NCBI RefSeq assembly: GCF_964204865.1
Contig: NC_135257.1
Span: 5,224,651-5,288,650 of the forward strand
From: Styela clava
Taxonomy: Eukaryota > Chordata > Ascidiacea > Stolidobranchia > Styelidae
Length of the DNA: 64,000 nt
Direction of reading: 5' to 3'
The position numbers and the translations under genes are program-made. The notes under the pieces were generated by a model. The model searched no databases, was not told the origin of the DNA, and worked only from the letters and a program-made list of their open reading frames with translations. Within the stretch, counting starts at the first letter, position 1. Each line of letters opens with the position of its first letter. Positions 21,011-63,071 of this stretch are shown one piece after another.

Positions 21011-21405
21011 ACAAAAAAGAAACTCCGGGCACTGTCAAGTACGGGAGGGGTAACCATGGGCAGCGAACCCTGCCCTTTTCAACTCGTGGAGGTGGCTTCT
21101 CACAGGTCACAGATGTTCCCCATCAATTGCGGAATTCCACAGGGTTCTGTATTAGGACCTCTTGAATTCTTGATAGCAATTAACGATTTGTCTAACAGCT
21201 CGAATTTTTTGACCAAACTCTTTGCCGATGACGCGGGCCTGCTCGACAGTGCAAAAGTCTTGAGTTCACTCCAAGACAACGTGAACACTGAGATAGACAG
21301 AGTTTATGATTGGATGACATGTAACAAATTCACAGTGAATGTTGATAAATCGAAAGTAATGATATTCAGCCCAAGAACTCGCACTGGACTTGCAAACTTC
21401 ACAGT

Positions 21406-21614
21406 TGTGGCGAACCACTTAACTAATAATAGCCGTTATGAGTCACAATTGTTTTGTTTATGTTTTTGTCACGCATGATTACTTACGTGCTTTTCTTACG
21501 ATAACTTGTCATTCTGTTTTCTGTTCGCTTGTCGTTAACATTGCTTTGTTATGAATTAAACATCAACATAATTGAAAGTCTTTTTCTTGTTAAAAAAGAA
21601 GTTAGTTCGCTTCA
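21406..21614 (+). repeat. 5' LTR of the Ty3 element
   Basis: 209 bp, TG...CA ends, identical by eye to 26845-27053. It contains the promoter by analogy with other LTRs; I see no certain TATA box. Confidence 0.93.
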
Positions 21615-21675
21615 AATGGTGACCCCGACCTCAAAAGCATACTTTTGAGAAAAGAATACGCACATAACGAAGAAT

Positions 21676-22350: not shown

Positions 22351-22979
22351 TCTCTTTGGCGGTCGGCGATTCAAACCTTTATTACGTCACAGACAAAAAC
22401 TCTGGACGCAGTTTTTTAGTTGATACGGGTGCACAAGTCAGCGTGCTGCCTGCCACCGGTCATGACCGTCGTTACGGGCGACCAGGACAAGCACTTTTGG
22501 CAGCTAATGGCACCTCAATTACGACATATGGCACACGAAAAGTGCCTTTGACTATATGCGGTAGAAATTTTACCTGGAAATTCACATTAGCCAATGTTTC
22601 ACGGGCAATTATCGGGGGAGATTTTTTGCGCTCTCACGGACTTTTGGTCGACATCAGGGGCAAACGACTTATCGAGGCAAGCACATACGCTTGTATTCCA
22701 ACCAGAACGATTACTGGCACGCCGCCTTGCCTTCACTACGTAGCCGAAAACGATTTTGCCAAAATTCTGAACGAATTTCCTGATTTAACGCGCCCCACAT
22801 TCAGCAACCCGACCACTGCACACGGGGTAAAGCATCATATTGTTACAGAAGGCCCCCCGGTGCACGCAAAGGCTCGAAGATTGCACCCCGATAAGCTAGC
22901 CGCGGCAAAGGCAGAGTTTGATAACATGATTGAACTCGGAATCATCCGACCCTCAAATAGCCCCTGGGCGTCTGCGCTT

Positions 22980-29915: not shown

Positions 29916-32900
29916 CAGTGGCGGCGCGTCAATAGGGCCAACCGGGGCAATGCCCCGGTTGTTTTTTCGGTATAATAAAAAATATTCGAAAAATACCTCA
30001 ATATCGGTTGCACAGACTGTCTACACTAGCCATATTCTCCCGACATGGTTCATTTTTCGCTCGCAAAGCCTTCGCCGAACGTCGACGGGGCGACGCCGAT
30101 TTTGCCCCGGTTGCTCATTGTATATCGTATTCTCTCTTTTATCTTCCACTCGCCGCGTTTGTCTCGTTTGTTTTCTGTTTCTTTACTAAATCATCGGGGC
30201 TAGCCCCGAAATTATGACGACACAATGCCGACGTTTCTTACAACAACGTGTTGACATATTCACGCATTCCTTCTCGTTCGTTGGTTGCTCGAAGAGTTGA
30301 TAGTTTTCTCGCCTTCGTTGTTGTCGCTTGTTTCGCTATTTGAATCAGTTAGAGACCTTTAGTCCATTTGCTTTCGATTTTCCACATTCCTTTTGAGCTC
30401 CTCACTTCTTTCCGGCTTGGCATTTCTTAGCCTTAGACCTCATAATGAATAAGGTTGATGCACTACTTCGCACTCCGTTTTCGCAGCTGCCGCTGGAACA
30501 AAAATTAGAGGTACAACGTCTTGGGCCTTATCAACCAAAATATTGTTCACTGGAACAATCCCATGACGGAGGAAAGCGTCGGCGTACATTCTGCGCAGAA
30601 ACTTGGTATAAAAAACACGAATGGTTGTGTTACAGCGAGGACAAAAATGCACTTTTTTTTTTTCATCTCCTACTTTTTGCTACCGCCCGTGACTCACGTT
30701 GGTGTAAATTTGTAAGTTTTAGAGATCTCAAACATCTTTCCGAGCGTGCCAGGGATCATCAATCTTCTATGGAGCATCTGGACAATGCAGTAAAATACCG
30801 AACATTCGGAAATGTTAATATTGCAGCACAGTTGGATGAAGGACGCGCGGTTTCTATTCGTCGGCACAACCAAAACGTCGAGAAAAGCCGCCATGTTCTC
30901 GGTCGATTGATAGATGTTTTGAAGTTCATTGGTTGTCACGAGCTGTCCCTCCGTGGGCACGATGAACGGGCTGGCTCTTCTAATAGAGGGGTATTTTTGG
31001 ATATGGTGAAATACACCGCATCCCTAGATACAGTATTGAGAGATCATCTTGATGCCGCGACTGTTTCGAAAGGGACATCTAAGGATATCCAAAATGATTT
31101 GCTCGACTCAATGTATAAAATTTATTTACAACATTTGGCTCTGGAAATTGAGAATTGCCAGTTGCTTTCGATTCAGTCTGACGAGACGACTGACATCACG
31201 TGCGTTTCCCAACTGGCTGTGATTTTTCGGTTTGTGAAAGATGGTAAACCTACCGAGAGATTTCACAGCTTTGTACCAATCGTTGATCGCACGGCTTGCG
31301 GGATATCGGCTGTACTGAAAGAAGTGTTACAGCCTTACAACGCGAAGTCAAAATTGATAGCTCAAACTTATGACGGCGCGGCAGTCATGAGTGGGTCGAA
31401 ACATGGTGTTCAAGTTTATATAAAAGAAGATTCTCCTCATGCGCATTTTTTACATTGTTATGCACATCAATTTAACCTCGTTATTAAAAATATGTGTCTT
31501 GATACCCCTCTCGTCCGTATGTTTTTTGCAAATGTTTCGGGGTTTTCTTCATTTTTTTCCGTTTCGCCGAAGCGCTCTGACCTCCTTCGCCAGATATGTA
31601 GCCGCCGTCTCCCAGCTTGTGCACCAACACGTTGGAACTTCCAATCACGCGTGGTGCAGGGCGTGTCCGAAATTAGGTCTGAGCTCATTGAGTGTTTCAA
31701 TGGCATTCAGAGCTCTCCGGTTTGGGACGAACGCTCTGTGAGGGAGGCGGCGTCTGCTAGAAGATGGTGATTTTTCATTTTTTCTCGCTTTTTTCTCCAC
31801 AATATTCTATCACGTGGATGTATTATACGGCGCATTGCAGTCAAGGCTAATGGATGGAGCGTCTGTGCAGTCGTGTATTTCAGACTTCTGCGATGCTGTA
31901 TCTCGTATCCGAGAAACAATAAAATACGACGACACATGGAGTGCTTCTTTACGCCGCGGGCAAACAACGCAGCGTTTGATTTTGTCTGCAAAGGAATGCT
32001 GTGACATTCTGGTGAATCAAATAGGCGATCGTCTGCGCACTGAACACCTTGCCGCGTTCTCTTTGATGAACCCAAAAATTTTTCAAAATTTGCACGTCAA
32101 TTTCCCATTCATTTGTTGGCTACTGTCTCCAAATTTTACCCCATGATAAACGTGGGTAAATTGGAAAATGAAATGCGATGTATATACACCAATCAAACTT
32201 TTTTGAACATCACATCAACTTGCGCGCTCTATGGGTTCCTCATAGATAACACTCTAGTAACTACCTTTGCGGCGTCTGCAAAATTTCTGGACATCATTTT
32301 GACGACGCCTATTTCTTCCGCCGACGCAGAGCGAACATTCAGCACGCTGAAGCGTATTAAAACGTATCTCAGAAACACAATGAAGCAAGATAGATTAAAT
32401 TCCTTTGCTGTTTTATCCATTCACAGAGACGTTATTTCTGGGATGCATGACTTTAATCAGCGCGTTATTGAGCATTTTGCTTCCAAGAAACCGCGGCGTG
32501 TTGCATATATGTTCAAACAGTAGAAGTCTTGCAGCATATATATCTATGAGTGAGCGACGCATGTCCTTATCTTTGCATTAAATTTCCTTTCTTCATAGTA
32601 ACGTTTTAAACCTTATTTTAGGTTTTGTCTGCTTTCCCGAAGTTTCTGTTAATATGTCATTGTATTTATCTGGGTAAAAATTGCCTTTCCTTCTGAAAGA
32701 GGTTCAAAATAAACTATGTCTATATTTATTAATCCCTTGACTTGGACCGGTTTTAAAAACACTTTCTTATCGTTAAAAATTTTCGCTTTTGCCAATTGGT
32801 TGTTACCGATGGAATGGTTTTTATACTCATAAAATGATGGGAGAACTTACAGCGCTCATCCTGTCCCCGTAGATGGGGGTGACTTTGTCCCGCAGTAGCT

Positions 32901-43285: not shown

Positions 43286-43558
43286 CCGTAGGTTAGGTAC
43301 CGGTACCTACCGTATGACAGTACTGCAGTATGAACCTTGTTCGCCAACCTAAAACTTACCCCGACTACCCTACCCGAACAACAATCAACTAAAAAATCCC
43401 CTAAATAGGGTACCTATCGACCGCACTGTAAATATGAGGTACGTGGTCAAATTTCCAACTAACTTCAGAACTTGTCTGAACCAGTATATCTACCGTGGAA
43501 CGGTAACCTAGGTAAAGCCAACGGCCGGCAACCAACTTGCCTAATGTTAAGCAAGTTC

Positions 43559-44328
43559 ATGGACGCCATCTTGTGCCATATTTGGGAAACGCGAAACAAT
43601 GGAGTCTTATGGAAAATTTTCGTCGTGTTGTTGTACCGAATCGAATAAGTCCGCTGGTACAAGTGCTAGAATGAAACTGAAGGGTGGATTTTGAACTTTA
43701 AGATATATGCTATCTTAATATATAACGCAATTTAGGAAAAAAAACTAACCAATGCGCTAAATTTGACCCCAAACACAGCGTAGAACCATTTTTGGTCATA
43801 TTTCCAAAGATTTCATAGTGATACGCTAATTTGAGGCTGTAAAATGTCTCCGCAACAATCCTACAATGTCATTTGTTCTTCTAGCGCAGCTTTGAGCTGA
43901 GCAGTAGGGCATTATGAGAGATTGACGACCGAAAAATGTCAACCAGAAAATAGAAACGGCCATTGAAGCAAAGTTGGGTCGGCCGGTAATTTCGAAGAAA
44001 AAATACAACTTTTCATCTGTGACGTCATAAGGAACGCCATTGTCAAATGGTTAATTATGACGATAAGAATGGCCAATTTACTTCGGAAGCAACTCGGAAC
44101 CGGTATACTTGTCTTCAAAGACAATTTAATGTACTATAAATGTAATTTGGCCAACATGAAAGGATATAAGCATGTACGGCTAAGATTCTACTTCAAAACG
44201 CGACCTTCAAAATTTTTCTACGCAAAATATTAGTGAAAATAATAGGTATGTTTCAATGATTGTGTTGAAACTTCCCAAAAGGCGCCGTGTTAAATTGCCG
44301 AGAACAATAGGCACAAGATGGCGTCCAT
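43559..44328. mobile_element. Non-coding element with 19-bp inverted ends
   Basis: The perfect 19-base sequence ATGGACGCCATCTTGTGCC at 43559-43577 recurs inverted at 44310-44328. The 770 bp between them is less A/T-rich than its neighbours and contains short frames only. No target duplication is apparent, so the element class is unknown. Confidence 0.55.
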
Positions 44329-45649
44329 TGTCTGAGCGTTGCCTCGCTTATATTATATCAATGACATTAAACAACATGATAGGCAACTCTGACGTCACTC
44401 CATAAGACTACAGGCAAAACATTGTATTTCATGATACGCTCCAATGCACATATTTCTCGTCGCCTTTCGCGTCCGTTTTCCGCTCGCTCCTGCTACTCGG
44501 CGTCTTTTTTACGTATAGTACCTGCCTTTTTGCGCCTGTAACGAAACAAAATAATCTCTATATCTAAGAAGTTTTGCTTACTTGGAAAGCTGGAATAACA
44601 GGCAAGCTGTAAAGAGCAATTCTGAACATCATAGACGTTTTTTTTTTATCAGAGAAGATTACAAACGCGATAGCGGAAAGATTTGTGTGGAACATTTTGC
44701 AGATAATGACAAAGTTCAAAGTTAGTAATTTTAATGTTTGCGCTTAATCATTGAAATTTCATTTAAAGAGGGTGTCATACAAAACTGTGCTGCGATACAA
44801 TTCCATAACACAAAGTTTGCACCTATCGAACTTGCTTTTGTAGGTGAATTTATTAGATATATTACATATTCAGTTAATCGTAGGTAACATTGCTGGTACA
44901 TAATGCATCGTAGATAGGTTTGTTTAAATTTAGGAATTTAGCTCATAGCCCACTAATTAATATTATCTTCTATGCAGGAGGTTGCAGGGCTGAATTCAAC
45001 TTGCAGCCTTACCGATCACCTGACGATGCTCATTTAGTTTGGCTCGAGCAAGTCTTCTTGAAATGCTTGTGTGGATGGAAACTACCTATATTTTTTGCCT
45101 TCCTCCGATTTTAGACAAATTTATTCTGAGGGATTTCGCATATAATTCTCACTGATTGTTGGCTGTTTATAATTCCTATTGATTGTGAATTCTGATTATA
45201 ACAATGAGTTGAAAATTTTTTTACCTAATTTACTGGCACCTTTTTCTTGTCAATACTCCAAGCTGAGGTAATAAACATGACAATACATTTATGTCATCTG
45301 GAAGCAAAATATGCACACTAATTAATAGTTTGGCACATTGAGATAATACATCATGACAGAAAATACAAGTTAAAGATATGTATGACCAACACATGGTAAT
45401 TAAAATTAAAAAAAATTAATAGGGGCTGTGGAGTATGGAAAGTTCAAGACAAAGAAAAGAACAAATGTTCATAGCTCATGAACTCTCAATTTTGCCTCCA
45501 TTGCTTTGTGAAGGCCAGTATATTTCGAGTGGCTGAATTGGTTTACCTTTATGATAGCAACGATTTTGTATTTAATATAGCGAGATTATTTCAATTTAAT
45601 TGAAGTGATATAATTTCCCAAAGCAATGCTTGAATCGTCTAGAATAGAT
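44329..45649. other. No certain gene; diverged inverted repeat and possible THAP relic
   Basis: 44350-44480 resembles the reverse complement of 48060-48190 (shared blocks CAATGACATTAAACAACATG and ACGCTCCAATGCACATA). A plus-strand stretch near 44658-44735 reads EDYKRDSGKICVEHFADND before a stop, which recalls the C-x2-H-F end of a THAP zinc finger, but the upstream part is not in frame. I cannot support a gene. Confidence 0.35.
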
Positions 45650-46839
45650 CAGTGGTGTCAAACTCATGGGTTTTCGAGAGCCGCATTGCATTTTGAAAAT
45701 TGTAAAAAGAGCCGCAAACAGTTTTTGATAATGTATACTTAAAAGATATTTTTAAGATAGTTTTAGTTTGTGACATATATTGTGATGCAACTAAACAGTT
45801 GGATTAAGTTTTATTATTTTCTTCAATTTCAAATGCAATTACATATTAATATTTGCATTCCACTATTATTGCAACATTTGCAAGTTACAGTATTTATTAT
45901 AAAAAATCGTAAAATTCTATGTACAACCATCAAAATCATTTTTGAACAAGCTTTGAATAAGGAAAGAATAATACATACACTAAAAATAACTTAATCTAAA
46001 TATATGAACCTAAAATTAACAAAAATACTACAGTATAAACTCAATGTTTTAATAATTACATTTGTCCTGGCGTTTGGCATCTTTTTTGTGTCACCAGCAT
46101 ACTAAGGCCAGTCTGAAATGATTTTATAGTACCAACTCTAACTAACGAGGCCACATGATCATGGGTTTATCTGGATCTTTACGAATGTTTAATTAATTCC
46201 AGTAATGCAAAAAAGTTACTTTTATCATTTCATGTATAGATCAGTAAAAAAACAAATGACAGATTTTTTCGACAAGACATTTCGCACTACATTGCGTGGC
46301 ATAGGATTGCTTGAATTATTATTGATATTGATTTTTAGTAACTAAGTCGTTGTATAATTATATTAATATACAAACACATGGAAATTTTCTGTTCGAAGTT
46401 GGTCTTCGAATTTGTCATATTGACTGCTGAGCTTATTGTGTTTTTTGATTGTATTGATGGAAATATGACAAATTAAATAATGTGCTTCAGAATTTTGTGA
46501 AGAGCAGAAATGTTACAACTCCCATTTTCTTCGAAAATGCCACCTTCTTCATGTACTTTGCGTTTAATTTAATTACTCAAGTGTTTTATTCAAGTATTCT
46601 TTTGCTAGCTTGATGTGTATTCTTAATTGGGTCAAAATGTGGACAAAAAAAATCAATATTCCAAAACTACTTTCAGTAAATTGTTTTCTGTGTGAATAAT
46701 CAATTTCACTTTAGAAGGTTTGAAAAATCTATTACATTTAGATAAAAAAAAAAAAACTTCCAAAATACTATTACAATTATGGTTAAACGTTCGAGGGCCG
46801 CACTGGAAGTTCTCTGGGGCCGCGAGTTTGAGATCCCTG
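45650..46839. mobile_element. hAT-type element, 1.2 kb, no intact transposase
   Basis: The left end CAGTGGTGTCAAACTCA and the right end GAGTTTGAGATCCCTG are mutually inverted with mismatches. GAGCCGC / GGGCCGC motifs lie just inside both ends. The 8-bp flanks GAATAGAT and GTCTAGAT match at 6 of 8 bases. The interior is A/T-rich and has no long frame, so this is probably an old internally decayed copy. Confidence 0.75.
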
Positions 46840-47215
46840 GTCTAGATTGAAGTTGTTCAAAAAATATATGATAGTAATTTATCATGAATGATGAATATAC
46901 CCCTTCCGGAATTTCTTCTATAGTACTACCAAAAGTTGATGAACCAAATATAACACAGGTGCAGTGAGGTACCCGTAATCCTCATTTCCAAAGCTGTTTT
47001 AAGTATGTCTGGCGTGTTTTGTGCCTTTTTACAAATAAGACCGCTTATGCAATCTTACGCTTTGGAATTTTTAGTTATTTTCCTCAAGCTCTGCAGGATG
47101 TGGGGGCCATACACAACTCTACCGGAGGGTCAAATGTCTTTGCATGCCTCCATAGGTTGTTTTTCTATTGCAATTTTCTATTTTCAAATGCATTATATTT
47201 CTTGGAATCACACTG

Positions 47216-48043
47216 TCACTGATATGTCGCCAGACTTCTGATATCTCCCCGTCTGCTATAGTTGTCCTGTGGATAAATAATAGGAAATTGAGATTAGACG
47301 AATAGTTGAAAGTTTTGCTTTATGTCGGCTTAATTTCTTGATTGATATACTTACTATTTCTGCTATTGCCTCTTGTGCTGCAAGAGTCTCACAATGCTTA
47401 GACAGGTTTGTCCACAACTTTCACATCTGAAGAAAGAGAGGAGATTTATTAATTTTCGTTAAGAATAAATAAAGCAGTCTATATGATTCAGAATGGAAAA
47501 GCTACTAAATCCAATATCTCATGTTTTATTTAAAAAATATTTTACTGAATTTGGTATATAAACCAACTAATAAAAGGCTTTAGTCAGAAAATTACAAGCA
47601 TTCGTGGCTCCAAATACTTGAGAAATCAGACTATACAATATAGACCGGTATGAGTGAAATGTTAGGTGAACTTGTTAACACTTTGATTCAATACGCAAAT
47701 AAAAGTGAATGCGTAATAGTATGTTACAATGAGCAGCAATCAACAATGAGTATATATCCTCACTGGTTAAAAAAATCTAACTGGAGGTGCATGAACTATT
47801 TGAAACCATAAGGGGTAAGTAAATATGTAATTTCGGCAAATGGGCAACTACGTACCGTACTGAATTAATAACTTCGTAGTATTTGACAAAGGCTGGCTTT
47901 CACACATGTACTTAACAGTGCGATGCCCGGGTGTGATATACAACAATAGTATTCACCTTACCTTTTACCGATTTCTTTTTACCCCAACTTTCAAAAATAT
48001 CATTAAAATCGACAACAACTGTCAAAGCAGGCACGAACACCAT
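47216..48043 (-). CDS. Candidate three-exon gene for a 66-aa protein, function unknown
   Basis: Exons 47957-48043 (ATG at 48043), 47355-47417 and 47216-47266, all in phase 0, with donors GTGAAT and GTAAGT and acceptors GTGAAAG and TCCACAG. The segments are VFVPALTVVVDFNDIFESWG, LWTNLSKHCETLAAQEAIAE and DNYSRRGDIRSLATYQ. I do not recognise a family. Two weaknesses: a stronger donor (GTAAGG at 47961) and a stronger acceptor (CTTCAG before 47427) exist but break the frame, and exon 3 also has a longer open frame in another phase. The giant inverted element begins about 150 bp upstream of the ATG. Confidence 0.28.
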
Positions 48044-48194
48044 TCGTGCTACGCCTTGAAAGCAGCGCACATCCGCTCGTTTTCGTCTCGTCAAGTATGT
48101 GCATTGGAGCGTGCTATCGAATACGATCTTCGGACAAAAATGCCGGAGTTGCGCATCATGTTGTTTAATGTCATTGTATTATATATACGCTTTG

Positions 48195-48310
48195 GGTAAA
48201 GCTAGCGGCCACTTCAAGCGGACAGTTACCAATTTTTCCAAATTTGAACCCGCCATGTTCCACGACAGTTGTCGCGAATTCACTTAATTGCGGCTACATG
48301 GATGCAAAAA
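48195..48310. repeat. Left outer terminal inverted repeat
   Basis: Matches the reverse complement of 60217-60332 with only scattered differences (for example GTTCCACGAC against GTTTCACGAC). It contains GAACCCGCCATGTT and TCGCGAATTCACTTAATTGC. Confidence 0.92.
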
Positions 48311-51300
48311 ATTTAACTGAGTTGAAGCGTAATTTATGCAAGAAATAATTTTTTCTCATCCAATTCATTAATACGGTGAATTTGATGAAGATATATAAAA
48401 CATATATTAAATTTTAAAACAATTCCACTTTGCGGAAAGTTGGGAAATACCCCCCAATTAAAGGAAAATTTTTAAGAAATTGTCGATATAACTCAGTTAA
48501 AGCGTCATTTATGCAGGAAATAATATTTTCTCATCCAATTCATTAATACAGTGTATTTGGTGGACAAATATAAAATACATATTAAAATTTAAAAAAAATC
48601 CACCGTGCGGAAAGTAGAAAAATTCCCCCCAGTTTAAGAAAAAAATATAGGAAATCTCCAATTTAACTCAGTTAAAGCGTAATTTAGGTAAGAAGGAATT
48701 TTTTCTCATCCAATTCATTATTGCAATGTGTTTGGTGGACAAATATAAAATAGATATTAAAATTAAAAAAAAATCCACCGTGCGGAAAGTAGAGAAATTC
48801 CCCTCAATTTAATGAAAATATTTAGGAAATCGTCTATCCAACTCAGTTAAAGCATAATTTATGCAAGAAAGAATATTTTCTCATCCAATTCATTGATACA
48901 ATATATTTGGTGGAAAAATATAAAATACATATTAAAATTTAAAAAAAATCCACCGTGCGGAAAGTAGGGAAATTCCCCTCAATTTAAGAAAAAAATATAA
49001 GAAAATTGTCAATTTGACTCAGTTAAAGCGTAATTTAGGTAAGAAGGAATTTTTTCTCATCCAATTCATTAATGCAGTGTGTTTGGTGGACAAATATAAA
49101 ATAGATATCGGAATTTTAAAAAAATCCACCATGCGGAAAGTAGGGAAATTCCCCTCAATTTAATGGAAATTTTTAAGAAATCGTCTATTTAACTTAGTTA
49201 AAAAATAATTTATGCAAGAAAGAATATTTTCTCATCCAATTCATTAATACAGTGTATTTGGTGGACAAATATAAAATACATATTGTAATTTAAAAAAAAT
49301 CCACCGTGCGGAAAGTAGGGAAATTCCCCCCAATTTGATGAAAATATTTGAGAAATCGTCTATTTAACTCAGTTAAAGCGTAATTTATTCAAGAAAGAAA
49401 ATTTTCTCATTGAATTCATTTATACGGTGTATTTGGTGGACAAATATAAAATACATATTAAAATTAAAAAAAAATCCACCGTGCGGAAAGTAGGGAAATT
49501 CCCCTCAATTTAATGAAAATATTTAAGAAATCGTCTATCCAACTCAGTTAAAAAATAATTTATGCAAGAAAGAATATTTTCTCATCCAATTCATTAATAC
49601 AGTGTATTTGGTGGAGAAATATAAAATACATATTAAAATTTGAAAAAAATCCACCGTGCGGAAAGTAGGGAAATTCCCCTCAATTGAAGAAAAAAATATA
49701 AGAAATCGTCAATTTGACTCAGTTAAAGCGTGATTTAGGTAAGAAGGAGCTTTTCTCATCAAATTCATTAATGCAGTGTTTTTGGTGGAAAAATATAAAA
49801 TACATATTATAATTTAAAAAAAATCCACCGTGCGGAAAGTAGGGAAATCCCCCCAATTGAAGAAAAAAATATAAGAAATCGGCAATTTAACTCAATTAAA
49901 GCGTAATTTAGGTAAGAAGGAATTTTTTCTCATCCAATTCAGTAATGCAGTGTGTTTGGTGGACAAATATAAAATACATATTAAAATTTAAAAAATCCAC
50001 CTTGCGGAAAGTAGGGAATTCCCCCTCAATTAAAAAATATATATAAGAAATCGTCAATTTGATTCAGTTAAAGCGTAATTTAGGTAAGAAGGAATTTTTT
50101 CTCATCCAATTCATTAATGCAGTGTGTTTGGTGGACAAATATAAAATACATATCAAAAGTTAAAAAAAATTCACCATGCGGAAAGTAGGGAAATTCGGTA
50201 CTCTCGAAATATGGACACAAAGATGACGCACAACCTGAATATAAAAGATGTACCAGGATAGGTTCAGATTTAGAATGTAGATTGTACGCTTTTGGGAGCG
50301 CAGGGAATAACCCATTTATGCAAAAAATAATTTTTTCTCATCCAATTTATTGATACAGTGTATTTGGTGGACGAATATAAAATACATATTGAAATTAAAA
50401 AAAAATCCACCGTGCGGAAAGTGGGGAAATTCCCCCCAATTTAATGGAAATATTTAAGAAATCGTCTATCCAACTCAGTTAAAGCATAATTTATGCAAGA
50501 AAGAATATGTTCTCATCAAATTCATTAATACAATGTATTTGGTGGACAGATATAAAATACATATTAAAATTTAAAAAAAATCCACCGTGCGGAAAGTAGG
50601 GAAATTCCCCCCAATTTGATGAAAATATTTGAGAAATCGTCTATCCAACTCAGTTAAAGCATAATTTATGCAAGAAAGAATATGTTCTCATCAAATTCAT
50701 TAATACAATGTATTTGGTGGACAGATATAAAATACATATTAAAATTTAAAAAAAATCCACCGTGCGGAAAGTGGGGAAATTCCCCCCAATTTAATGGAAA
50801 TATTTAGGAAATCGTCTATCCAACCCAGTTAAAGCATAATTTATGCAAGAAAGAATATGTTCTCATCCAATTCATTATTACAGTGTATTTGGTGGACGAA
50901 TATAAAATACATATTAAAATTTAAAAAAAATCCACCGTGCGGAAAGTAGGGAAATTCTTCCCAATTTGATGAAAATATTTGAAAAATCGTCTATTTAACT
51001 CAGTTAAAGCGTAATTTATCCAAGAAAGAATCTTTTCTCATCCAATTCATTAATACGGTATATTTGGTGGACAAATATGAAATACATATTAAAATTTAAA
51101 AAAAATCCACCGTGCGGAAAGTAGGGAAATTCGGTACTCTCGAAATATGGACACAAAGATGACGCACAACCTGAATATAAAGGGTGTACCAGGATAGGTT
51201 CAGATTTAGAATCTAGATTGTACGCTTTTGGGAGCGCAGGGAATAACCCATTTATGCAAAAAATAATTTTTTCTCATCCAATTTATTAATACAGTGTATT

Positions 51301-51740
51301 TGGTGGACGAATATAAAATACATATTAAAATTTAAAAAAAATCCACCTTGCGGAAAGTAGGGAAATTCCCCCCAATTTGATGAAAATATTTGAGAAATCG
51401 TCTATTTAACTCAGTTAAAGCGTAATTTATCCAAGAAAGAATATTTTCTCATCCAATTCATTAATACGGTGTATTTGGTGGACGAATATAAAATACATAT
51501 TAAAATTTAAAAAAAATCCACCGTGCGGAAAGTAGGGAAATTCCCCCCAATTTGATGAAAATATTTGAGAAATCGTCTATTTAACTCAGTTAAAGCGTAA
51601 TTTATCCAAGAAAGAATATTTTCTCATCCAGTTCATTAATACAGTGTATTTGATGGTGATATATAAAACGAATATTAAATTTTAAAAATATTTCACCGTG
51701 CGGAAAGTTGGGAAATTCCCCTAACTTATGTTAAAATCAA
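48310..51740. repeat. Left array of ~175-bp tandem units
   Basis: Roughly 18-20 units, each with AACTCAGTTAAAGCGTAATT, TTCTCATCCAATTCATTAAT, a TGTATTTGGTGGACAAATAT block and TCCACCGTGCGGAAAGTAGG, the last recurring every 174-176 bp (for example near 48601, 48775 and 48950). Two copies of a 115-bp module (50196-50310 and 51132-51246) interrupt the array 936 bp apart. No protein frame; sequence divergence among units is a few to ~15 percent by eye. Confidence 0.93.
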
Positions 51741-53160
51741 CGGAATCGTAAATTTATATAAATTAAAGCGAAATCTTGTCATATTTATTGATCATTCCCA
51801 TTCTCCTCCATAACTAAATATTATTTTTGAAGTTTTATCATGTTCTTATTTCATTTTATTGGTTTACACTACAACCTCGTAACACCCCCTCTCACTCCAT
51901 CTCAGTAGTAACTTATGCTGGTATCTTTGGGTCACCTTCGGTGAACGTGCAGCCTTAACCCAGTACATCAGCAGCCTAAATCAGAATAGTATTGTCAACC
52001 TTAACAGATGAGGTGGCATCATCAAGATTAGTAACGATTTGACACTTATGGCGCTTCATTTGTTATGTCGAATATGTATGTCGCCGAACCGTTTAATGCT
52101 GTTGTTAAAAAATATCTCAGAATTTGAAAGACTGTGAAACTGTATTAAAGAGCTAAAGGAAGTATGGCACACCGTACTAAGACGTTGGAAGAAACGACGA
52201 TACGATCGATAGCAGCCGCTACGATCACTGTAAACGTATGAAGAAACTTTCAATTCCCAAATGAAGTTTTCACATGAATCGATCAACAAATCGTTTTTTA
52301 TTCACCAATCACAAAAAAATGGAAGCAAAAAATATCACGAAAAACTTGTATACAGTAGAAACTCTCCGTACGAAAGGCTCTGGATACGAAAAATCCAACA
52401 ATTCTTTTCCGAAAACTTGCATAGTGATATTTGTTCATTTTAGATTAATTTAATGCAGGGATGTTCAATACAAACCTAATATTTGAATATTGCGACCTTC
52501 GAATATCGTTTTTTTGGTGTTTTTGAGAATACCGAATATGACGCACATTTCCTAGCGCCGTCAAACTTTCGATTTAGAAAAAAATATTCACAGCCATTCC
52601 ATTTTTTATCGCAATTGAAATCAGCCGTGCGCGTCGTGGCACTAAGTTATGGCGCCGTGGGTAGCGCCGACTCAAATCAAGTAAAAACCGACTTAAAAAA
52701 TAAAACAAGTTTTCAGGTCTTAATTCTCCATCAGTGGCGGACGGTAATTTGGGAATCAATCATTTGATTATGACGATGGTAAACAAAGGTACATAAGCAT
52801 ACCGTTCTTAGTTTTTATTCGTTATTACTATGTTCTTCCTTCTTTCCGTATGTTCTTTGTTTATTTATTATGCTGTAATCTAATTCTAACATGTAGTTGT
52901 TGGATTTTAATCATTAATATAATTTATACGAAAATGATGTCCGAGTTTTACGTGGACTTAAAACGGATTAGGGCATTTACAGGTAAAACGCCTTATGTAA
53001 TACGACGGGTCTTCGGAACGAATTAATTTCGTGGGTAGCGCTTCTACTGTATATTCATGGCTCTGTACTCAATGGACAGGTTAACGGGAAATGGCCATTT
53101 GATCTACTTGTTAGTGTCAAGTGGCAACCCTTTGAAACTTATTTTTACATCAAATGCGTT
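51741..53160. other. Left part of the unique core, no gene recognised
   Basis: Non-repetitive DNA inside the giant element, with only short frames. The stretch 52056-52289 (minus) is open for 77 codons but resembles nothing I know. It could hold regulatory sequence or the 3' side of the peptidase gene. Confidence 0.4.
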
Positions 53161-54556
53161 TTAATGCCAACCGGCCTCGTATGCTGGACATTTCCAAAGT
53201 ACGTCCAATATCTCCGCAATATCTCCGTTGTAGCATCCAGCATGAAACCAGCGTGGACACACATCACAGCCAATCTTTAAAAAAAGTCAAAATAACATGA
53301 ATATAAAATTATATATTGCATGTTTATTGAACATCTATTAGGTTACTTACCCATTCTGCTTCTCCCGTCTCCCCACAAAAACTGCAGTACGTCTCCACGC
53401 AGTCTGTCAGAAATGTATTTTTTAACTGCGTAATGTTTAGATAATTATCTAAATATCAAATATTCATTTCGTCATACCGGAATTCTGAATCACCCAACTG
53501 GCAATTTTCGCCCTTTCATCGATTGGTGAAACAACATGGATGCTTTTAGTTTCCAGCATCATCCAAGCGAACTGCAATCGAATATATGCCAAAGAACCAA
53601 TAGACAAAATAAGTTGTTTCAAAATAACGCAAAATAGTGTGAAGAAAATCATGAGAATGTTGTTTGGTATATGAAAATAAATTAATCAATTCTTATGGAA
53701 CAATTTCTTGTGAATAAATTGACAAAGAACATATACTGATGTATGGATAATTAAATTTGTATGACTTCCTATATACCTTTATCACGTAAATTCCACAATC
53801 CCTCTGAATGGGATGTTCAGTAACCGTTGGTGTCCAGTTTTCGCATTCTTTTCGTAAATTCATCCAGTTTCTGTGTGTTGTAACGTGTGTAAATTCAGTT
53901 TTACTAATATACTTTTCATGTAACTTCATTTTTAAAAATCAATACTTTTCATTCAATTTCAATGTCATTCACAATTGTCAATGTCATTCCAATTGTAAAT
54001 ACAGTTTGTTACTGGTACAATGTGATTATGTAGTTCATATATTACTTGTAAGAACAGGACACGTTTTTACGAAAACAGCCGAATACTTTCAACAAGAGAA
54101 ATAGAATATTAAAAATAAAGGACTGGATAACTGTAAAGAAGATAATTTAAAAAAATCCACTCCAGGATTTGAAAGCGATCTGGCAACAGTGAAGTAAAGG
54201 TTTATTGAGTTTCTACTTTAGCTTGTAGTTGAAATGGCTAACGATAAGATGTATTTCAGGAATTGAACTCACTTATAATTTTTACATGCGTGGGTGGTCT
54301 CTTCAATTGAACTTCCATACGGATTCAGAAAGTAGAAATTAATTCTCGTTGTGTCAATGAATTGCAAAGATATTTTGTTCGAATCAAAATGAAGAATCAA
54401 ATACAAAAAGGCAATATGTAATTTTGCCACAACAATTTCTTATTTATTGAATATTATTAAAATTTCAAAACAAAACTTCATCCTCAGCAAAAGAACCCAG
54501 TGATTTCCATTTATCCTGCACGCAGAAACAATCACGCTATAGTTTCCTAAATTTAA
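53161..54556 (-). CDS. Ulp1/SENP-type (C48) cysteine peptidase with C-terminal PHD finger, partial
   Basis: Exons 5' to 3': 54483-54556, about 54273-54361, 53777-53923, 53478-53571, 53351-53403, 53161-53274 (stop). Exon 1 carries the catalytic His in NGNHWVLLL. Exon 2 has FIDTTRINFYFLNPYGSS, where C48 enzymes usually have the Asp (here Asn). Exon 3 has HPIQRDCGIYVIK, with the catalytic Cys in the Q-x-D-C-G box. Exons 5-6 encode a PHD finger (YCSFCGE, then CDVCPRWFHAGC and WKCPAY), whose last zinc Cys is replaced by Tyr. The last four exons have exact GT-AG sites and matching phases. The joints around exons 1-3 lack clean consensus sites, so the gene may be decaying. The N-terminal part, including any transposase, was not found. 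Such enzymes cleave ubiquitin-like modifiers; Ulp1-like domains also ride in several transposon families. Confidence 0.7.
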
Positions 54557-55149
54557 CTGTAAAACAAATGAGATGATATAAGTATGATATTAAAGTGTTG
54601 TAGGAAAGATGAATATGGACTTTTTAGATAAAAAAACAATGTCGATTTTTCCAACCCTAATTTTGTTTATACCAATGGTTTTCGATCATAGTTCCGCAAG
54701 TATATTCCAGCAGTTTTACATTCAAATCCGAGGTGTTCGGCGTCAAATTGTTTTTTTCATATTTTTGTAACAAAAGTAATCATGAAATCAACTTATACAT
54801 ATCAATTACACCGGGGTTCTCGAGCCTCGGATATATTTATTGGTTGTTTCCTATCCGCCTGAAAAATTAAAAACATCAAAGATTGAAAGATTGACTTACA
54901 TCAGTCATTAGATGGTGATGCATGTTGGTGAAAAACACAACCAGCAATATAACTATCCATAACGTAAACATCACGGCGATTCTTTGTCATCAGTTGAAAG
55001 GAGTAAATAATAGTCTGAACAGTTACAAACGAATTATAAAAATTATTTAATTGCTTGTGATTGAATAAATTATACTTTTATATCCCATTTGGAATCATGT
55101 AGAGGTAGAATTGTTACTGAGTTGTCTGTCGGGAACAGTAGCAGTGAGA
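54557..55149. other. Right part of the unique core
   Basis: Between the first visible peptidase exon and the right array. A minus-strand frame near 54650-54750 is open but has no acceptor, so I do not call it an exon. Nothing else supported. Confidence 0.4.
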
Positions 55150-58100
55150 CGGTCATTTATTCCCTGCGCTCCCAAAAGCGTACAATCTAGATTCTAAATC
55201 TGAACCTATCCTGGTACACCTTTTATATTCAGGTTGTACGTCATCTTTGTGTCCATATTTCGAGAGTACCGAATTTCCCTACTTTCCGCATGGTGGATTT
55301 TTTTTAACTTTTAATATGTATTTTATATTTGTCCACCAAACACACTGCATTGATGAATTGGATGAGAAAAAATTCTTTCTTACCTAAATTACGCTCTAAT
55401 TGAGTTAAATTGCCGATTTCTTATATTTTTTTCTTCAATTGGGGGGAATTTCCCTACTTTCCGCACGGTGGATTTTTTTTAAATTACAATATGTATTTTA
55501 TATTTGTCCACCAAAAACACTGCATTAATGAATTGGATGAGAAAAAACTCCTTCTTACCTAAATTACGCTTTAACTGAGTCAAATTGACGACTTCTTATA
55601 TTTTTTTCTTCAATTGAGGGGAATTTCCCTACTTTCCGCACGGTGGATTTTTTTCAAATTTTAATATGTATTTTATATTTGTCCATAAAATACACTGTAA
55701 TAATGAATTAGATGAGAAAATATTCTTTCTTGCATAAATTATTTTTTAACTGAGTTGGATAGACGATTTCTTAAATATTTTCATTAAATTGAGGGGAATT
55801 TCCCTACTTTCCGCATGGTGGATTTTTTTTAAATTTTAATATGTATTTTATATTTGTCCACCAAATAAACCGTATTAATGAATTGGATGAGAAAATATTC
55901 TTTCTTGGATAAATCACGCTTTAACTGAGTTAAATAGACGATTTTTCAAATATTTTCATCAAATTGGGGGGAATTTCCCTACTTTCCGCACGGTGGATTT
56001 TTTTTAAATTTTAATATGTATTTTATATTTGTCCACCAAATATACCGTATTAATGAATTGGATGAGAAAATATACTTTCCTGCATAAATTATTTTTTAAC
56101 TGAGTTGGATGGACGATTTCTCAAATATTTTCATCAAATTGGGGGGAATTTCCCTACTTTCCGCACGGTGGATTTTTTTTAAATTTTAATATGTATTTTA
56201 TATTCGTCCACCAAATACACTGTATTAATGAATTGGATGAGAAAATATTCTTTCCTGCATAAATTATTTTTTAACTGAGTTGGATGGACGATTTCTCAAA
56301 TATTTCCATTAAATTGGGGGGAATTTCCCTACTTTCCGCACGGTGGATTTTTTTTAATTTTAATATGTATTTTATATCTGTCCACCAAATACATTGTATT
56401 AATGAATTTGATGAGAAAATATTTTTTCTTTCATAAATTATGCTTTAACTGAGTTGGATAGACGATTTCTTAAATATTTCCATTAAATTGGGGGGAATTT
56501 CCCCACTTTCCGCACGGTGGATTTTTTTTAAATTTTAATATGTATTTTATATTTGTCCACCAAATATACCGTATCAATGAATTGGATGAGAAAATATACT
56601 TTCCTGCATAAATTATTTTTTAACTGAGTTGGATGGACGATTTCTCAAAAATTTTCATCAAATTGGGGGGAATTTCCCTACTTTCCGCAAGGTGGATTTT
56701 TTTTAAATTTTATTATGTATTTTATATTCGTCCACCAAATACACTGTATTAATGAATTGGATGAGAAAATATTCTTTCCTGCATAAATTATTTTTTAACT
56801 GAGTTGGATGGACGATTTCTCAAATATTTCCATTAAATTGGGGGGAATTTCCCTACTTTCCGCACGGTGGATTTTCTTTAAATTTTAATATGTATTTTAT
56901 ATCTGTCCACCAAATACATTGTATTAATGAATTTGATGAAAAAATATTTTTTCTTGCATAAATTATGCTTTAACTGAGTTGGATAGACGATTTCTTAAAT
57001 ATTTCCATTAAATTGGGGGGAATTTCCCCACTTTCCGCACGGTGGATTTTTTTAAAATTTTAATATGTATTTTATATTCGTCCACCAAATACACTGTATC
57101 AATAAATTGGATGAGAAAAAATTAATTTTTGCATAAATGGGTTATTCCCTGCGCTCCCAAAAGCGTACAATCTAGATTCTAAATCTGAACCTATCTTGGT
57201 ACACCTTTTATATTCAGGTTGTGCGTCATCTTTGTGTCCATATTTCGAGAGTACCGAATTTCGCTACTTTCCGCATGGTGGATTTTTTTCAACTTTTAAT
57301 ATGTATTTTATATTTGCCCACCAAACAAACTGCATTAATGAATTGGATGAGAAAAAATTCCTTCTTACCTAAATTACGCTTTAACTGAGTCAAATTGACG
57401 ATTTCTTATATATATTTTTTAATTGAGGGGGAATTCCCTACTTTCCGCACGGTGGATTTTTTTTAAATTTTAATATGTATTTTATATTTGTCCACCAAAC
57501 ACACTGCATTAATGAATTGGATGAGAAAAAATTCCTTCTTACCTAAATCACGGTTTAATTGAGTTAAATTGCCGATTTCTTATATTTTTTTCTTCAATTG
57601 GGGGGAATTTCCCTACTTTCCGCACGGTGGATTTTTTTTAAATTATAATATGTATTTTATATTTGTCCACCAAAAACACTGCATTAATGAATTGGATGAG
57701 AAAAAACTCCTTCTTACTTAAATTACGCTTTAACTGAGTCAAATTGACGATTTCTTATACTTTTTTCTTCAATTGAGGGGAATTTCCCTACTTTCCGCAC
57801 GGTGGATTTTTTTCAAATTTTAATATGTATTTTATATTTGTCCACCAAATACACTGTATCAATGAATTGGATGAGAAAATATTCTTTCTTGCATAAATTA
57901 TTTTTTAACTGAGTTGGATAGACGATTTCTTTAATATTTTCATTAAATTGAGGGGAATTTCCCTACTTTCCGCACGGTGGATTTTTTTTAAATTTTAATA
58001 TGTATTTTATATTTGTCCACCAAATACACCGTATTAATGAATTGGATGAGAAAATATTCTTTCTTGAATAAATTATTTTTTAACTGAGTTGGATAGACGA

Positions 58101-60080
58101 TTTCTCAACTATTTTCATTAAATTGAGGGGAATTTCCCTACTTTCCGCACGGTGGATTTTTTTTAAATTTTGATATCTATTTTATATTTGTCTACCAAAC
58201 ACACTGCATTAATGAATTGGATGAGAAAAAATTCCTTCTTACCTAAATTACGCTTTAACTGAGTCAAATTGACAATTACTTATATTTTTTTCTTCAATTG
58301 AGGGGAATTTCCCTACTTTCCGCACGGTGGATTTTTTTTAAATTTTAATATGTATTTTATATTTGTCCACCAAATATATTGTATAAATGAATTGGATGAG
58401 AAAATATTCTTTCTTGCATAAATTATGCTTTAACTGAGTTGGATAGACGATTTCTTAAATATTTCCATTAAATTGGGGGGAATTTCCCCACTTTCCGCAC
58501 GGTGGATTTTTTTAAAATTTTAATATGTATTTTATATTCGTCCACCAAATACACTGTATCAATAAATTGGATGAGAAAAAATTAATTTTTGCATAAATGG
58601 GTTATTCCCTGCGCTCCCAAAAGCGTACAATCTAGATTCTAAATCTGAACCTATCTTGGTACACCTTTTATATTCAGGTTGTGCGTCATCTTTGTGTCCA
58701 TATTTCGAGAGTACCGAATTTCGCTACTTTCCGCATGGTGGATTTTTTTCAACTTTTAATATGTATTTTATATTTGCCCACCAAACACACTGCATTAATG
58801 AATTGGATGAGAAAAAATTCCTTCTTACCTAAATTACGCTTTAACTGAGTCAAATTGACGATTTCTTATATATATTTTTTAATTGAGGGGGAATTCCCTA
58901 CTTTCCGCACGGTGGATTTTTTTTAAATTTTAATATGTATTTTATATTTGTCCACCAAACACACTGCATTAATGAATTGGATGAGAAAAACTTCCTTCTT
59001 ACCTAAATCACGGTTTAATTGAGTTAAATTGCCGATTTCTTATATTTTTTTCTTCAATTGGGGGGAATTTCCCTACTTTCCGCACGGTGGATTTTTTTTA
59101 AATTATAATATGTATTTTATATTTGTCCACCAAAAACACTGCATTAATGAATTGGATGAGAAAAAACTCCTTCTTACTTAAATTACGCTTTAACTGAGTC
59201 AAATTGACGATTTCTTATACTTTTTTCTTCAATTGAGGGGAATTTCCCTACTTTCCGCACGGTGGATTTTTTTCAAATTTTAATATGTATTTTATATTTG
59301 TCCACCAAATACACTGTATTAATGAATTGGATGAGAAAATATTCTTTCTTGCATAAATTATTTTTTAACTGAGTTGGATAGACGATTTCTTAAATATTTT
59401 CATTAAATTGAGGGGAATTTCCCTACTTTCCGCACGGTGGATTTTTTTTAAATTTTGATATGTATTTTATATTTGTCCACCAAATACACCGTATCAATGA
59501 ATTAGATGAGAAAATATTCTTTCTTGAATAAATTATTTTTTAACTGAGTTGGATAGACGATTTCTCAAATATTTTCATTAAATTGAGGGGAATTTCCCTA
59601 CTTTCCGCACGGTGGATTTTTTTTAAATTTTGATATCTATTTTATATTTGTCCACCAAACACATTGCATTAATGAATTGGATGAGAAAAAATTCCTTCTT
59701 ACCTAAATTACGCTTTAACTGAGTTAAATCAGAGATTTCCTATATTTTTTTCTTAAACTGGGGGGAATTTTTCTACTTTCCGCAAGGTGGATTTTTTTTA
59801 AATTTTAATATGTATTTTATATTTGTCCACCAAATTCACTGTATTAATGAATTGGATGAGAAAATATTATTTCCTGCATAAATGACGCTTTAACTGAGTT
59901 ATATTGACAATTTCTTAAAAATTTTCCTTTAATTGGGGGGTATTTCCCAACTTTCCGCATAGTGGAATTGTTTTAAAATTTAATATATGTTTTATATATC
60001 TTCATCAAATTCACTGTATTAATGAATTGGATGAGAAAAAATTATTTCTAGCATAAATTACGCTTTAACTCAGTTGAATT
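55150..60080. repeat. Right array of ~175-bp tandem units (inverted relative to the left)
   Basis: Roughly 26-28 units, the inverse of the left array (CCTACTTTCCGCACGGTGGA, ATTAATGAATTGGATGAGAA). It contains three copies of the 115-bp module (55157-55271, 57142-57256, 58602-58716) and a 1460-bp higher-order duplication. The right array is about 1.5 kb longer than the left, the length of one such higher-order unit. Confidence 0.93.
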
Positions 60081-60216
60081 TTAGATTTTGTCGATAAATG
60101 AGCTTCTGAGCAATAATTCATTTTATCGAGGAAAAAATGTGTTGTTTCAATCATTTTTGTTTTTTATTATGTTTCAGGTCTGTCGTCAGTTTCAAAAAGG
60201 GAGAATCACCTAATTT

Positions 60217-60332
60217 TTTGCATCCATGTAGCCGCAATTAAGTGAATTCGCGACAACTGTCGTGAAACATGGCGGGTTCAAATTTGGAAAAATTGGTAAC
60301 TGTCCGCTGTAAGTGGCCGCTAGCTTTACCTA
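60217..60332. repeat. Right outer terminal inverted repeat
   Basis: Inverse of 48195-48310. Between it and the right array lies about 130 bp not found on the left side. Confidence 0.92.
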
Positions 60333-60560
60333 GGTGGAACGGTAGTTATCTCATAATGAACATTTTATACATTTCTAGGCATGACCCGATGTACCGATCT
60401 CAATCCATTTCAACAAAATGACTGAATGACAGGGGGCAATGCACGAATCTTTATTTAATAGGTGCAGTTGGGACATTTACCATTGCTGTAGGCTATCGCG
60501 AATCCGCATAACTGCTCAAACTCAGGTCACGAGTAATCAAGTCATGGACAACCACTCAAG
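60333..60560. other. Short spacer between the two TIR elements
   Basis: 228 bp of apparently unique flank between the giant element and the 2.5-kb element; nothing recognised. Confidence 0.5.
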
Positions 60561-63071
60561 TAGGCCGCGAGCCGAGGCCCTGAAAAACGCCTAGAAAGTG
60601 AGTTTCGTAGCGCACATCAGGTAACTACCTGAAAATGATTTTAAAATGTTCCTTAAAAATTTAGTAACAAATATTGCCTTGTTCCCACTTCCAAAAGTTG
60701 CACGTTTTACGGAAAAGACGCTTTTACTACAAGAAATATGTGCTACGATCTGTCCTATATTCTCTACATTTTCGGCACTGAACAATGACTTCTGCATGAC
60801 GTAACAATTGAATTAAACCAGCTGTTAGCGAGCGGATGAATATTAGTTATTTCTGCTCGACCTTGCGCTGAGTTGGGCAGGCTTTCCATAGCCCTATTTA
60901 GTTATTATTAGTTAAGTTATGCTAAGACGTTGTTGAAAAATGTATAAGTAAATTATTAAACACTTGTAGATCCTTACCACGGATATGGGCCGTGAGACGA
61001 AACCATGAAAACGCCCAGAAAATGAGTTTCGTAGCGCACATCTGGTAACTAAATAAATTCTTCAGTTTTGTGTGAAAACGAACATAATGAACGCATTACA
61101 GCTTGTTCCACAATCCTGGTGCGAAATTGAATATAAGAGGTTCCCGGAAATTCAATAACCATAAGTTTACAACGCATACATAAGAACTATGCAATTCGAG
61201 AGCCCTACAGCACACTAAAACAAATGTATTCCTGTAATGTTTTGCCTGACCAAAATCGGACTTCCTCAGTCAATCATAATTTATTAGGTAGATTACGAAA
61301 AATATGGCATACATGTAACCAACAACAAAAAATACTTTAATTGTGTGACAGGAGTCGGGAGTGACCTCGAAAGCAGCGACACCAACAACGCTGATTCACA
61401 TTTGAGAATAAATTTTATGTAATAACCACAAGCAGTTTACAACAAGAACAGCATAAAAAGCTACATCCATTTTATAGAAGCTATCAAGTATCAAACGTAT
61501 TTATTTTTAAGCAATGAAGTCACAAATTAACATCGTGAGCACGAAAACACAAATAAATCAGTTATTTCTCACTTAGAAATTTACCGCAAAAGTCAAGAAA
61601 ATTAAATGAATGTACAATATGTACATAACATAGTGAACAGAAATATTAAAATTTACAATTAATCTTTTTTTAGTTTATGTGGTTATGTATTTGAACAAAG
61701 GCAATAATATTTCTAGAAACAGGACTACGACACTAACAAATGTCCGAAAAAAAAAACAAATGTATGATACTTATTAAATCAACTGTAATATCTAATTCAC
61801 TTTCTTCTGAATTGTTTTCGAAATCCACTATCTCAAAAATCGATGATTCTCATATACCTTTAAGCTTCAAGACTTCTTGTTTAATCCATTTTATAGCACT
61901 GATAGCAGCAGGGATCAGAGCCTGCGTTAGGTCGGATTGGTGGAACATTGCCGTTTTCTTTTGTAGTACAGTATCTAAAATAAGGAAGAAAATAATATTT
62001 GGAGCAGCATGATTTTAAAAATACCCCTAAATACTAACTAATACCTTGAATACATATTGCATTTTATCTGATGTACTAAATGAGCGTATATATGCTCATT
62101 GCATGTTCTACAGTCCAGCAGTGTTTGCATACCATTACTAAACTATATCTACACTAAATTTTGATATATCACAGTCTGAAATGTCCTATGACAGTATGAG
62201 TATGGACTATAGACTATATTTTGAAACATCAACTGTTTGTCTACAACTTCATTTCTCACCTCTCAATCATTTCCAATGCTACCTTTCTTTCCACTCCGGC
62301 ATAACTTATCATTGCTTCCCAGGTTCTTGTCGACTCTATGAATTTAGATTTAGACCAACCGACATTAGTAAAATTGATTAATTTCTTCTCTTCCACACAA
62401 CCGTGCATTACAGAAACAGCCATTCATTTCTATTTCCAAATATGCTGTGGCCTATATAGTAGTATAAGTCTGCTGAATAGTCAAGAAGAGTCATTAAATT
62501 AATCATAAACATTTCATGCAAGCCAGAAAATATCGTTGTTAGTGACATATTATTCTAGGTCTAGCCTTCCTTGGAGTTACCGCACCGTACCTATTTAACA
62601 ACGTCTTATGAGCTAGTGCTCAACTAAAATTGCTATTTATGGCAAGGATATACAAGTGTTTAATATCTTACCTATACTTTTCAACACCTCCTTAGAATAA
62701 CTGGACTAATATTACCGGTAACTGAAAAAAACTATGGAAAGGCTACTCAACGCAAAAGCGAGCAGTTGAGTACATCTGATATTCATCCGACCACTGGGGA
62801 TCCACCTACAGCTGACTAACTTGACTGTTACGTCGTGCAGAAGTCTGCGTTCATTGGCTCATGATACCGGAAAAGCAGAGAAAATAGGACAGATGGTAAC
62901 ACATATTTATTGTAGTAAAAGCGTCTTTTCTGTAAAACGTGCAACTTTTGGAAGTGGGAACAAGGCAATATTTGTTACTAAATTTCTAAGGAACCTTTTA
63001 AAATCATTTTCAGGTAGTTACCTGATGTGCGCTACGAAACTGAAAGATAAATGGCCTCGGCTCGCGGCCTA
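60561..63071. mobile_element. 2.5-kb element with ~290-bp terminal inverted repeats
   Basis: 60561-60840 is the imperfect inverse of about 62783-63071. Outer ends TAGGCCGCGAGCCGAGGCC pair exactly, and long shared blocks include AGTTTCGTAGCGCACATC and TTGTTCCCACTTCCAAAAGT. A third, shorter piece of the same repeat lies inside at about 60985-61045. No target duplication is obvious. The interior holds at least one exon-like minus-strand segment. The superfamily is unknown to me. Confidence 0.75.
61858..61974 (-). CDS. Exon-like segment inside the 2.5-kb TIR element
   Basis: Open between a good acceptor (CCTTATTTTAG before 61974) and a donor (AAAG|GTATAT after 61858), reading TVLQKKTAMFHQSDL, then TQALIPAAISAIKWIKQEV and LKLK, in phase 2 to 1. 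It looks like a helical protein segment. It may be part of a transposase or cargo gene, but I recognise no domain and found no partner exon. Confidence 0.35.

Follow-up and report, generated by a model that had tools for sequence, protein, structure and literature searches.

Within a 64,000-nucleotide stretch of the Styela clava genome (RefSeq assembly GCF_964204865.1, contig NC_135257.1, positions 5,224,651 to 5,288,650; hereafter the window) lies a recently mobile DNA element in which two opposed arrays of 175-bp satellite units flank a core bearing the 3' part of a C48 peptidase/PHD gene (Table 1). A sequence-only reading of the window had described a 3.4-kb core set between arrays of ~3.4 and ~4.9 kb, and this architecture was recovered using Tandem Repeats Finder, which placed the inverted right-hand units at 55271-60080 (arrays of 3.4 and 4.9 kb). 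The same reading had noted short outer inverted repeats, which proved alike at 116 of 119 bp, and a module peculiar to the arms, which we found as a 117-bp segment at four sites (50197-50313 and 51133-51249 in the left arm; 57139-57255 and 58599-58715 in the right arm), with 114 bp of it at a fifth (55157-55270, right arm). In total, 280 inverted-repeat pairs were identified within 47500-61500, the longest spanning 1166 bp at 92% identity. With long inverted ends built of tandem repeats, the window element has the structure of the foldback class.

The limits of the element differ from those first proposed, 48195 and 60332. On the right, the terminus extends to 60335 and is abutted by the 9-bp sequence GGAACGGTA. 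This sequence occurs at just one other place in the window, 43497, and as it there immediately precedes ACCTAGGTAAAG, the terminus shared with other copies, we place the left end at 43506. A nested insertion splits the left terminus of the element, which picks up again at 48195.

Table 1. Features of the foldback element and of the insertions nested in its left terminus (window coordinates).
Feature	Position	Strand	Remarks
Whole element	43506-60335		Termini and 9-bp duplications at both sides
Left target-site duplication	43497-43505		GGAACGGTA, 9 bp; ACCTAGGTAAAG directly after
Left terminus, outermost 12 bp	43506-43517	+	ACCTAGGTAAAG; identical to terminus of other copies
Nested insertion B'	43518-48194		~0.85-kb repeat family; contains transposon N; 12 bp inside terminus
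Transposon N, inside B'	44359-48176		3818 bp; inverted ends CAATGACATTAAACAACATGAT; 8-bp duplication TATTATAT
Left outer terminal inverted repeat, continued	48195-48309	+	97% identical to inverted right end
Left arm	48310-51721	+	175-bp tandem units and two 117-bp modules; Tandem Repeats Finder
Unique core	51722-55156		3435 bp; core alignments
C48 peptidase/PHD gene, 3' part	53161-54556	-	12 copies aligned for splice sites and frames
Exon (His)	~54556-54477	-	
Exon	~54344-54273	-	
Exon (Gln/Cys)	53870-53777	-	
Exon	53571-53478	-	
Exon	53448-53351	-	
Exon (PHD, stop)	53274-53161	-	
Right arm	55157-60211	-	Opposed 175-bp tandem units and modules; tandem/inverted-repeat and module positions
Right outer terminal inverted repeat	60212-60335	-	Ends CTTTACCTAGGT
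Right target-site duplication	60336-60344		GGAACGGTA; abuts right terminus

The sequence-only reading had proposed a genome search with the outer repeat, and this search (query 48195-48309) returned at least 40 matches at 97-100% identity (40 of 61 candidates scored), confirming that other copies exist. Searching with the 25-bp terminus, allowing up to 3 mismatches, gave 58 matches genome-wide versus 0 for a control pattern, and these comprised 25 inverted pairs 3.0-18.0 kb apart, the right end of the window element, and 7 unpaired matches (pairing by eye). About thirty dispersed loci share the terminus, and the copies open and close with it in inverted orientation (ACCTAGGTAAAGCTAGCGG...), followed inward by opposed 175-bp arrays. 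The core was matched in full or in part at 96-100% identity at at least 19 loci (40 of 367 candidates scored), while all listed matches to the 175-bp unit, a subset of 794, lay by eye at known terminus loci (40 of 87 candidates scored). An older terminus used as query led to no loci beyond those already known among the 40 of 61 candidates scored.

We read 13 copies of a young group, including that of the window, together with the copy at C3:2308676 at both ends and six loci of the older subgroup. Among the 20 copies with both ends read, 15 are flanked by exact 9-bp target duplications, namely C17:6826132, C9:1197501, C8:14935343, C6:12322232, C1:24593364, C18:16187292, C5:9460742, C16:1595739, the window copy, C3:2308676, and the older loci L031, L032, L033, L034, and L036. 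Three more have exact 8-bp duplications (C16:15190300, C17:18983706, and C8:21415635), the duplication of C14:19383712 is off by one indel, and L035 has none. Duplications were detected by script in 10 of the 13 young copies; those of C18, the window, L033, and C3 were added by eye or by separate reading. Among 156 mismatched pairs of flanks, formed as a control from the 13 young copies and with the left flanks of the window and C18 copies misplaced, none shared more than 3 bp. When the 300-bp flanks of C9:1197501 were joined with the duplication kept once, at least 12 end-to-end matches at 95-97% identity and at least 24 at 80-86% were found (40 of 66 candidates scored). The matched places are uninterrupted and lack the element, and are thus paralogous empty sites; the C9:1197501 copy itself sits in repeated sequence, and its flank contains, by eye, a reverse-transcriptase-like open reading frame (ORF). 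Copies that are dispersed, bounded, and flanked by target duplications are the behaviour of a foldback transposon, and the element has been recently mobile. The suggestion of a mobile foldback-like element in the sequence-only reading is therefore upheld by the evidence it had called for, namely dispersed copies, target duplications, and empty sites.

To compare the arrays we used 415 full-length units from 13 copies. Mean unit divergence was 11.4-11.5%, alike for neighbouring units, units of the same arm, of the other arm, and of other copies, so that the arrays for the most part predate the spread of the family and have been little homogenised within copies. Local duplications are few, with 2.0% of same-arm, non-adjacent pairs less than 2% diverged versus 0.7% of pairs between copies. 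The three outermost units are kept by position, diverging by 6.6, 7.1, and 7.7% between copies versus 17.5, 13.0, and 11.2% from units of other ranks. The window element and C8:21415635 are sisters whose cores are 99.7% alike and carry common deletions, both being ~320 bp shorter in the core than most copies read according to the core alignments, yet the window copy has 14 full-length units on the left and 22 on the right versus 8 and 6 in its sister. In the left arm, the eight sister units track window ranks 3-9 and 13 in order, with blocks missing, and two of the eight resemble other copies more than the window; in the right arm the order relative to the window is not clear. As these sisters have nearly identical cores and arms that differ by kilobases, they are useful for measuring the gain and loss of array units. 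We detected no similarity between the 175-bp unit and the terminus, and derivation of the former from the latter was unsupported, since 93 of 200 shuffles scored equally well.

The minus strand of the core contains six recognisable last exons, with edges placed by eye, those towards the 5' end being uncertain, that encode a C48-type His...Gln/Cys region, in which we presume these residues to play their usual parts, followed by a PHD finger and a stop codon. Seven single core ORFs tried first against Pfam gave no C48 or PHD match, whereas the pieces read together did match. The sequence-only reading had assigned both domains to the core; the PHD finger is borne out, scoring 27.6 bits for the window piece 53161-53286 alone and 32.3 bits (1e-7) with the exons of C9:1197501 against a cut-off of 24, while C48 falls just short even with the fuller C9:1197501 exons (19.5 bits, 9.5e-4; cut-off 20.7). 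Exons were compared over 12 copies, leaving aside C17:18983706, most of whose core is missing. The five splice sites compared show no change in any copy that has them, but C16:15190300 and C16:1595739 have broken frames, stops interrupt C5:9460742, C6:12322232, and C18:16187292, and C1:24593364 is without two exons. Minor-allele counts per site were 0.133, 0.156, and 0.061 at codon positions 1, 2, and 3 and 0.072 outside exons; as the third position is less variable than the first and second, nothing points to constraint since the family spread. The upstream part of the gene could not be recognised as far as the arm boundary. Aligning cores had been proposed as a way to find an intact long gene, and no ORF of at least 120 residues is present in any of the 13 cores. 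Two diverged core relatives (C13:4767300 and C3:3918794) were likewise found to lack a long gene; their longer DNA alignments show 71-74% identity, and at the protein level matches fall in many frames, so no exon preference is clear. The core stretch 52700-53054 is in addition a dispersed repeat, with at least 18 genome matches elsewhere at 74-82% identity, confined to query positions 1-356 (40 of 367 candidates scored).

We next consider what moves the element. Nineteen loci, the 13 cores and the six older loci, were read for a transposase. The longest ORF of the older loci has 111 residues, and five MULE protein queries from this genome gave no match in any copy read, other transposase families not having been queried; no Rehavkus- or MULE-type DDE transposase of the element's own was seen in these 19 loci. 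A 625-residue ORF in the C14 copy was rejected as the element's own transposase because it lies in an arm and by eye looks like a nested DDE-type element. As no copy read shows a transposase of its own, movement probably occurs in trans, which of the two options of the sequence-only reading, a new transposon family or a cargo element mobilised in trans, is the better supported.

Apart from the element family and a few decayed relatives, an exon-by-exon genome search with the C48-PHD query gave 11 weak PHD pieces; three of them (E 0.009-0.053) adjoin MULE transposases. The loci of these three, L045, L046, and L047, are candidate Rehavkus-like elements of this genome. They have long inverted ends and MULE ORFs, of which the two scanned score 46.0 and 42.6 bits, together with a PHD-like ORF, which was scanned in two of them and at 21.7 and 23.9 bits lies just below the cut-off of 24; L045 and L046 bear 67-bp tandem arrays within their inverted ends, and 8-10-bp repeats flanking L046 and L047 were seen by eye and not found by script. 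At L048, an intronless ORF of 1012 residues (1607-4642, minus strand) with a MULE-like region adjoins a related MULE gene; its residues 165-469 are 44.6% identical to the neighbouring ORF, which has a Pfam MULE match, and it continues into a C48 domain (769-887, 37.2 bits) and a sub-threshold PHD finger (970-1010, 16.5 bits). The order C48 then PHD is common to this protein and the core. The sequence-only reading had held the core gene to be neither a known transposase nor a usual host gene. The copies read showed no transposase of their own and the exon-by-exon search no complete host gene, but transposons can have a tail of the C48-PHD kind: the L048 protein ends in C48 and a weak PHD match, and Ginger1 and Mutator transposases are reported to carry Ulp1/PHD domains (PMC2836005).

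Comparison with known systems, for which the cited papers were available in part, places the element close to Rehavkus, a group described as MULE-related that combines a PHD finger and a minisatellite with duplications of 9 bp (PMC6446971). Rehavkus-1_TC of Tribolium castaneum is 9.5 kb long, and its inverted termini hold a 164-bp satellite, mostly as five and eight monomers (PMC10218199). The two resemble each other in duplication length (9 bp in 15 of our 20 copies), in the satellite beside the terminal repeat, in unit length (164 versus 175 bp), in overall size, and in encoding a PHD finger. In Rehavkus, however, this finger is carried by the transposase, while in the element copies read it stands in the core without a transposase to attach to. 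The arms of the window element are also longer, with 14 and 22 full-length units, and differ in their 117-bp module, and a C48 peptidase precedes the PHD finger. As no Rehavkus/MULE DDE transposase was seen in the 19 loci read, we do not file the element as a member of Rehavkus; the ~9-bp duplications are those of MULEs, whereas a MULE transposase domain is lacking from the copies read. Tetris of Drosophila virilis (PMC4079207) is likewise a non-autonomous foldback element with tandem repeats (~220 bp) in its inverted ends, 8-10-bp duplications, by whose size it was assigned to Mutator, and no autonomous partner found. Its complete copies are without conserved ORFs, no peptidase/PHD core is mentioned in the portion available, and its repeat may come from its own terminus, unlike the unit described here. 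The Tm1 Mutator/Foldback family of root-knot nematodes (PMC3169594) links foldback ends and 9-bp duplications to a MULE transposase. It shares composite inverted ends, variable numbers of tandem repeats, and non-autonomous copies with our element, but has ~14-bp repeats, a length of ~1-2 kb, and a known transposase-bearing member. A 2026 paper on arthropod MULEs (PMC13359780) treats Rehavkus as outgroup, with PHD, Ulp1, and foldback absent from the main text as available, and a literature search combining foldback, Ulp1, and transposon gave no match among the papers available. Since satellite or tandem-array inverted termini are present in Rehavkus, Tetris, Tm1, and Galileo, the novelty proposed in the sequence-only reading extends no further than the family level: the element is a new family of a kind whose anatomy is already known, and no new class of mobile element is needed for it.

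Taken together, we consider it likely that this is a dispersed, non-autonomous, cut-and-paste foldback DNA transposon moved by a trans-acting transposase, most plausibly of the MULE/Rehavkus group. As a large non-autonomous foldback element, it probably works like Rehavkus and is mobilised by one. A transposase made elsewhere would bind the outer termini, and perhaps sites within the arrays, excise the element, and insert it with a 9-bp stagger, while the arrays may gain or lose whole units through recombination between repeats. The core could be the 3' remainder of a C48-PHD gene from an ancestral autonomous MULE/Rehavkus-group element, or a captured gene end.

Several observations weigh against the MULE/Rehavkus assignment. 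The transposase search in the copies used MULE proteins alone and about a dozen terminus loci lay outside it (loci not read inside include C2:790831-808833, C16:20608746, C9:4906855, C18:11587987, C6:12260754, and C5:13389342), we found no autonomous partner with the same terminus, and no MULE-domain match, of 82 genome-wide, comes within ~75 kb (by eye) of any of the 58 terminus matches. Three copies have 8-bp duplications, the core C48 score is sub-threshold, as are the PHD matches of L045, L047, and L048, and the L048 protein gave no Pfam MULE match of its own. The core C48-PHD pieces were not shown to be homologous to this protein, with 53 of 500 shuffles scoring as high, and the likeness of the element terminus to those of L046 and L047 is at chance level (p 0.99 and 0.43). 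With no alignment beyond shuffles and no Pfam MULE match, the link between the core and L048 is one of domain order and not of proven homology. The assignment to MULE/Rehavkus therefore rests on duplication length, the PHD finger, the satellite-bearing ends, and domain order.

We think it rather unlikely that the core gene end is instead a piece of a host gene captured in the manner of Pack-MULEs, with no relation to the element's own lost transposase. Capture would fit the many introns and intact splice sites of the fragment, which contrast with the single ORF encoding the MULE-like C48-PHD protein of L048, and the lack of an alignment to this protein beyond shuffles; the exon-by-exon search, however, retrieved no complete host gene, and three of the 11 weak PHD pieces lie beside MULE transposases, most of the others being unread. 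We regard as distinctly improbable a placement in some other superfamily that makes 8-9-bp duplications, such as Zisupton/KDZ, hAT, Merlin, or a P relative. Zisupton/KDZ elements have an 8-bp duplication and a KDZ transposase. The transposase that would decide the superfamily is absent from the copies read, 8-bp duplications occur in 3 of 20 copies, and foldback ends arise in several superfamilies. Against this, 9-bp duplications predominate (15 of 20), and the combination of a PHD finger with satellite-bearing inverted ends fits Rehavkus. Galileo, of the P superfamily, has similar arm-length dynamics, but its copies are bounded by 7-bp sequences (PMC3573991) versus 8-9 bp here; P-type transposases were not searched for. 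Ginger1 shares with the core an Ulp1 (C48) protease and a PHD finger as C-terminal extras of its transposase, but has 4-bp CCGG or CCGT duplications and TGTNR ends, where our element has ACCTAGG ends, and arrays are not mentioned in the portion available (PMC2836005). A local inverted duplication of a satellite, to which the opposed arrays of a single satellite might point, is refuted by about thirty dispersed loci with a common terminus, target duplications, and empty sites, and we give it virtually no credence.

Returning to a MULE/Rehavkus-mobilised foldback element, we would add, as an unlikely but specific suggestion, that the family goes back to an autonomous Rehavkus-like element, as yet undescribed, with a C48 (SUMO-type) peptidase and a PHD finger at the end of its transposase, and that the derivatives of this element retained arms of tens of satellite units as they spread. 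If so, a Rehavkus-like ancestor joined satellite-armed ends to a transposase tail acting on chromatin or SUMO. The family is in any case a clear, recent, multi-copy example of a DNA transposon carrying and spreading satellite DNA.

The insertion that splits the left terminus, B', is flanked by a 6-7-bp duplication, (G)GTAAAG, at 43511-43517 and 48195-48201 (junction letters by eye). Its family has at least 39 other copies (39 of 249 candidates scored), of which 27 start at query base 12-14, 10 at 2-10, and 2 at 80-83. B' was in turn split by transposon N, a young 3.8-kb element with at least 29 further full-length genome matches at 98-100% identity (33 of 1107 candidates scored), whose short ORFs matched no transposase family when scanned. 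The 4.7 kb left of 48195 had been considered as a fused autonomous partner, an idea that was dropped because the region consists of these two nested repeat families. The B' family apparently entered the same terminus position twice, in opposite orientations, in the window and in the C3:2308676 copy, which retains a 14-bp remnant (by eye), suggesting a target preference.

Elsewhere in the window, Rfam and tRNA searches gave no match. ORFs with a DUF4371 domain (66 bits, within 30397-31770) lie at 30397-32523 and are presumably hAT-like. Positions 1-11300 recur at 15356-26655 (offset 15,355) without a single mismatch over 11,300 bases, and the first copy stops exactly at a 200-N gap (11301-11500); this is perhaps a false assembly duplication at a scaffold gap. 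Both duplicated copies contain a Gypsy-like retroelement polyprotein ORF (8927-11521 and 24282-26822), in the second of which, the copy scanned, reverse transcriptase, RNase H, and integrase domains were identified.

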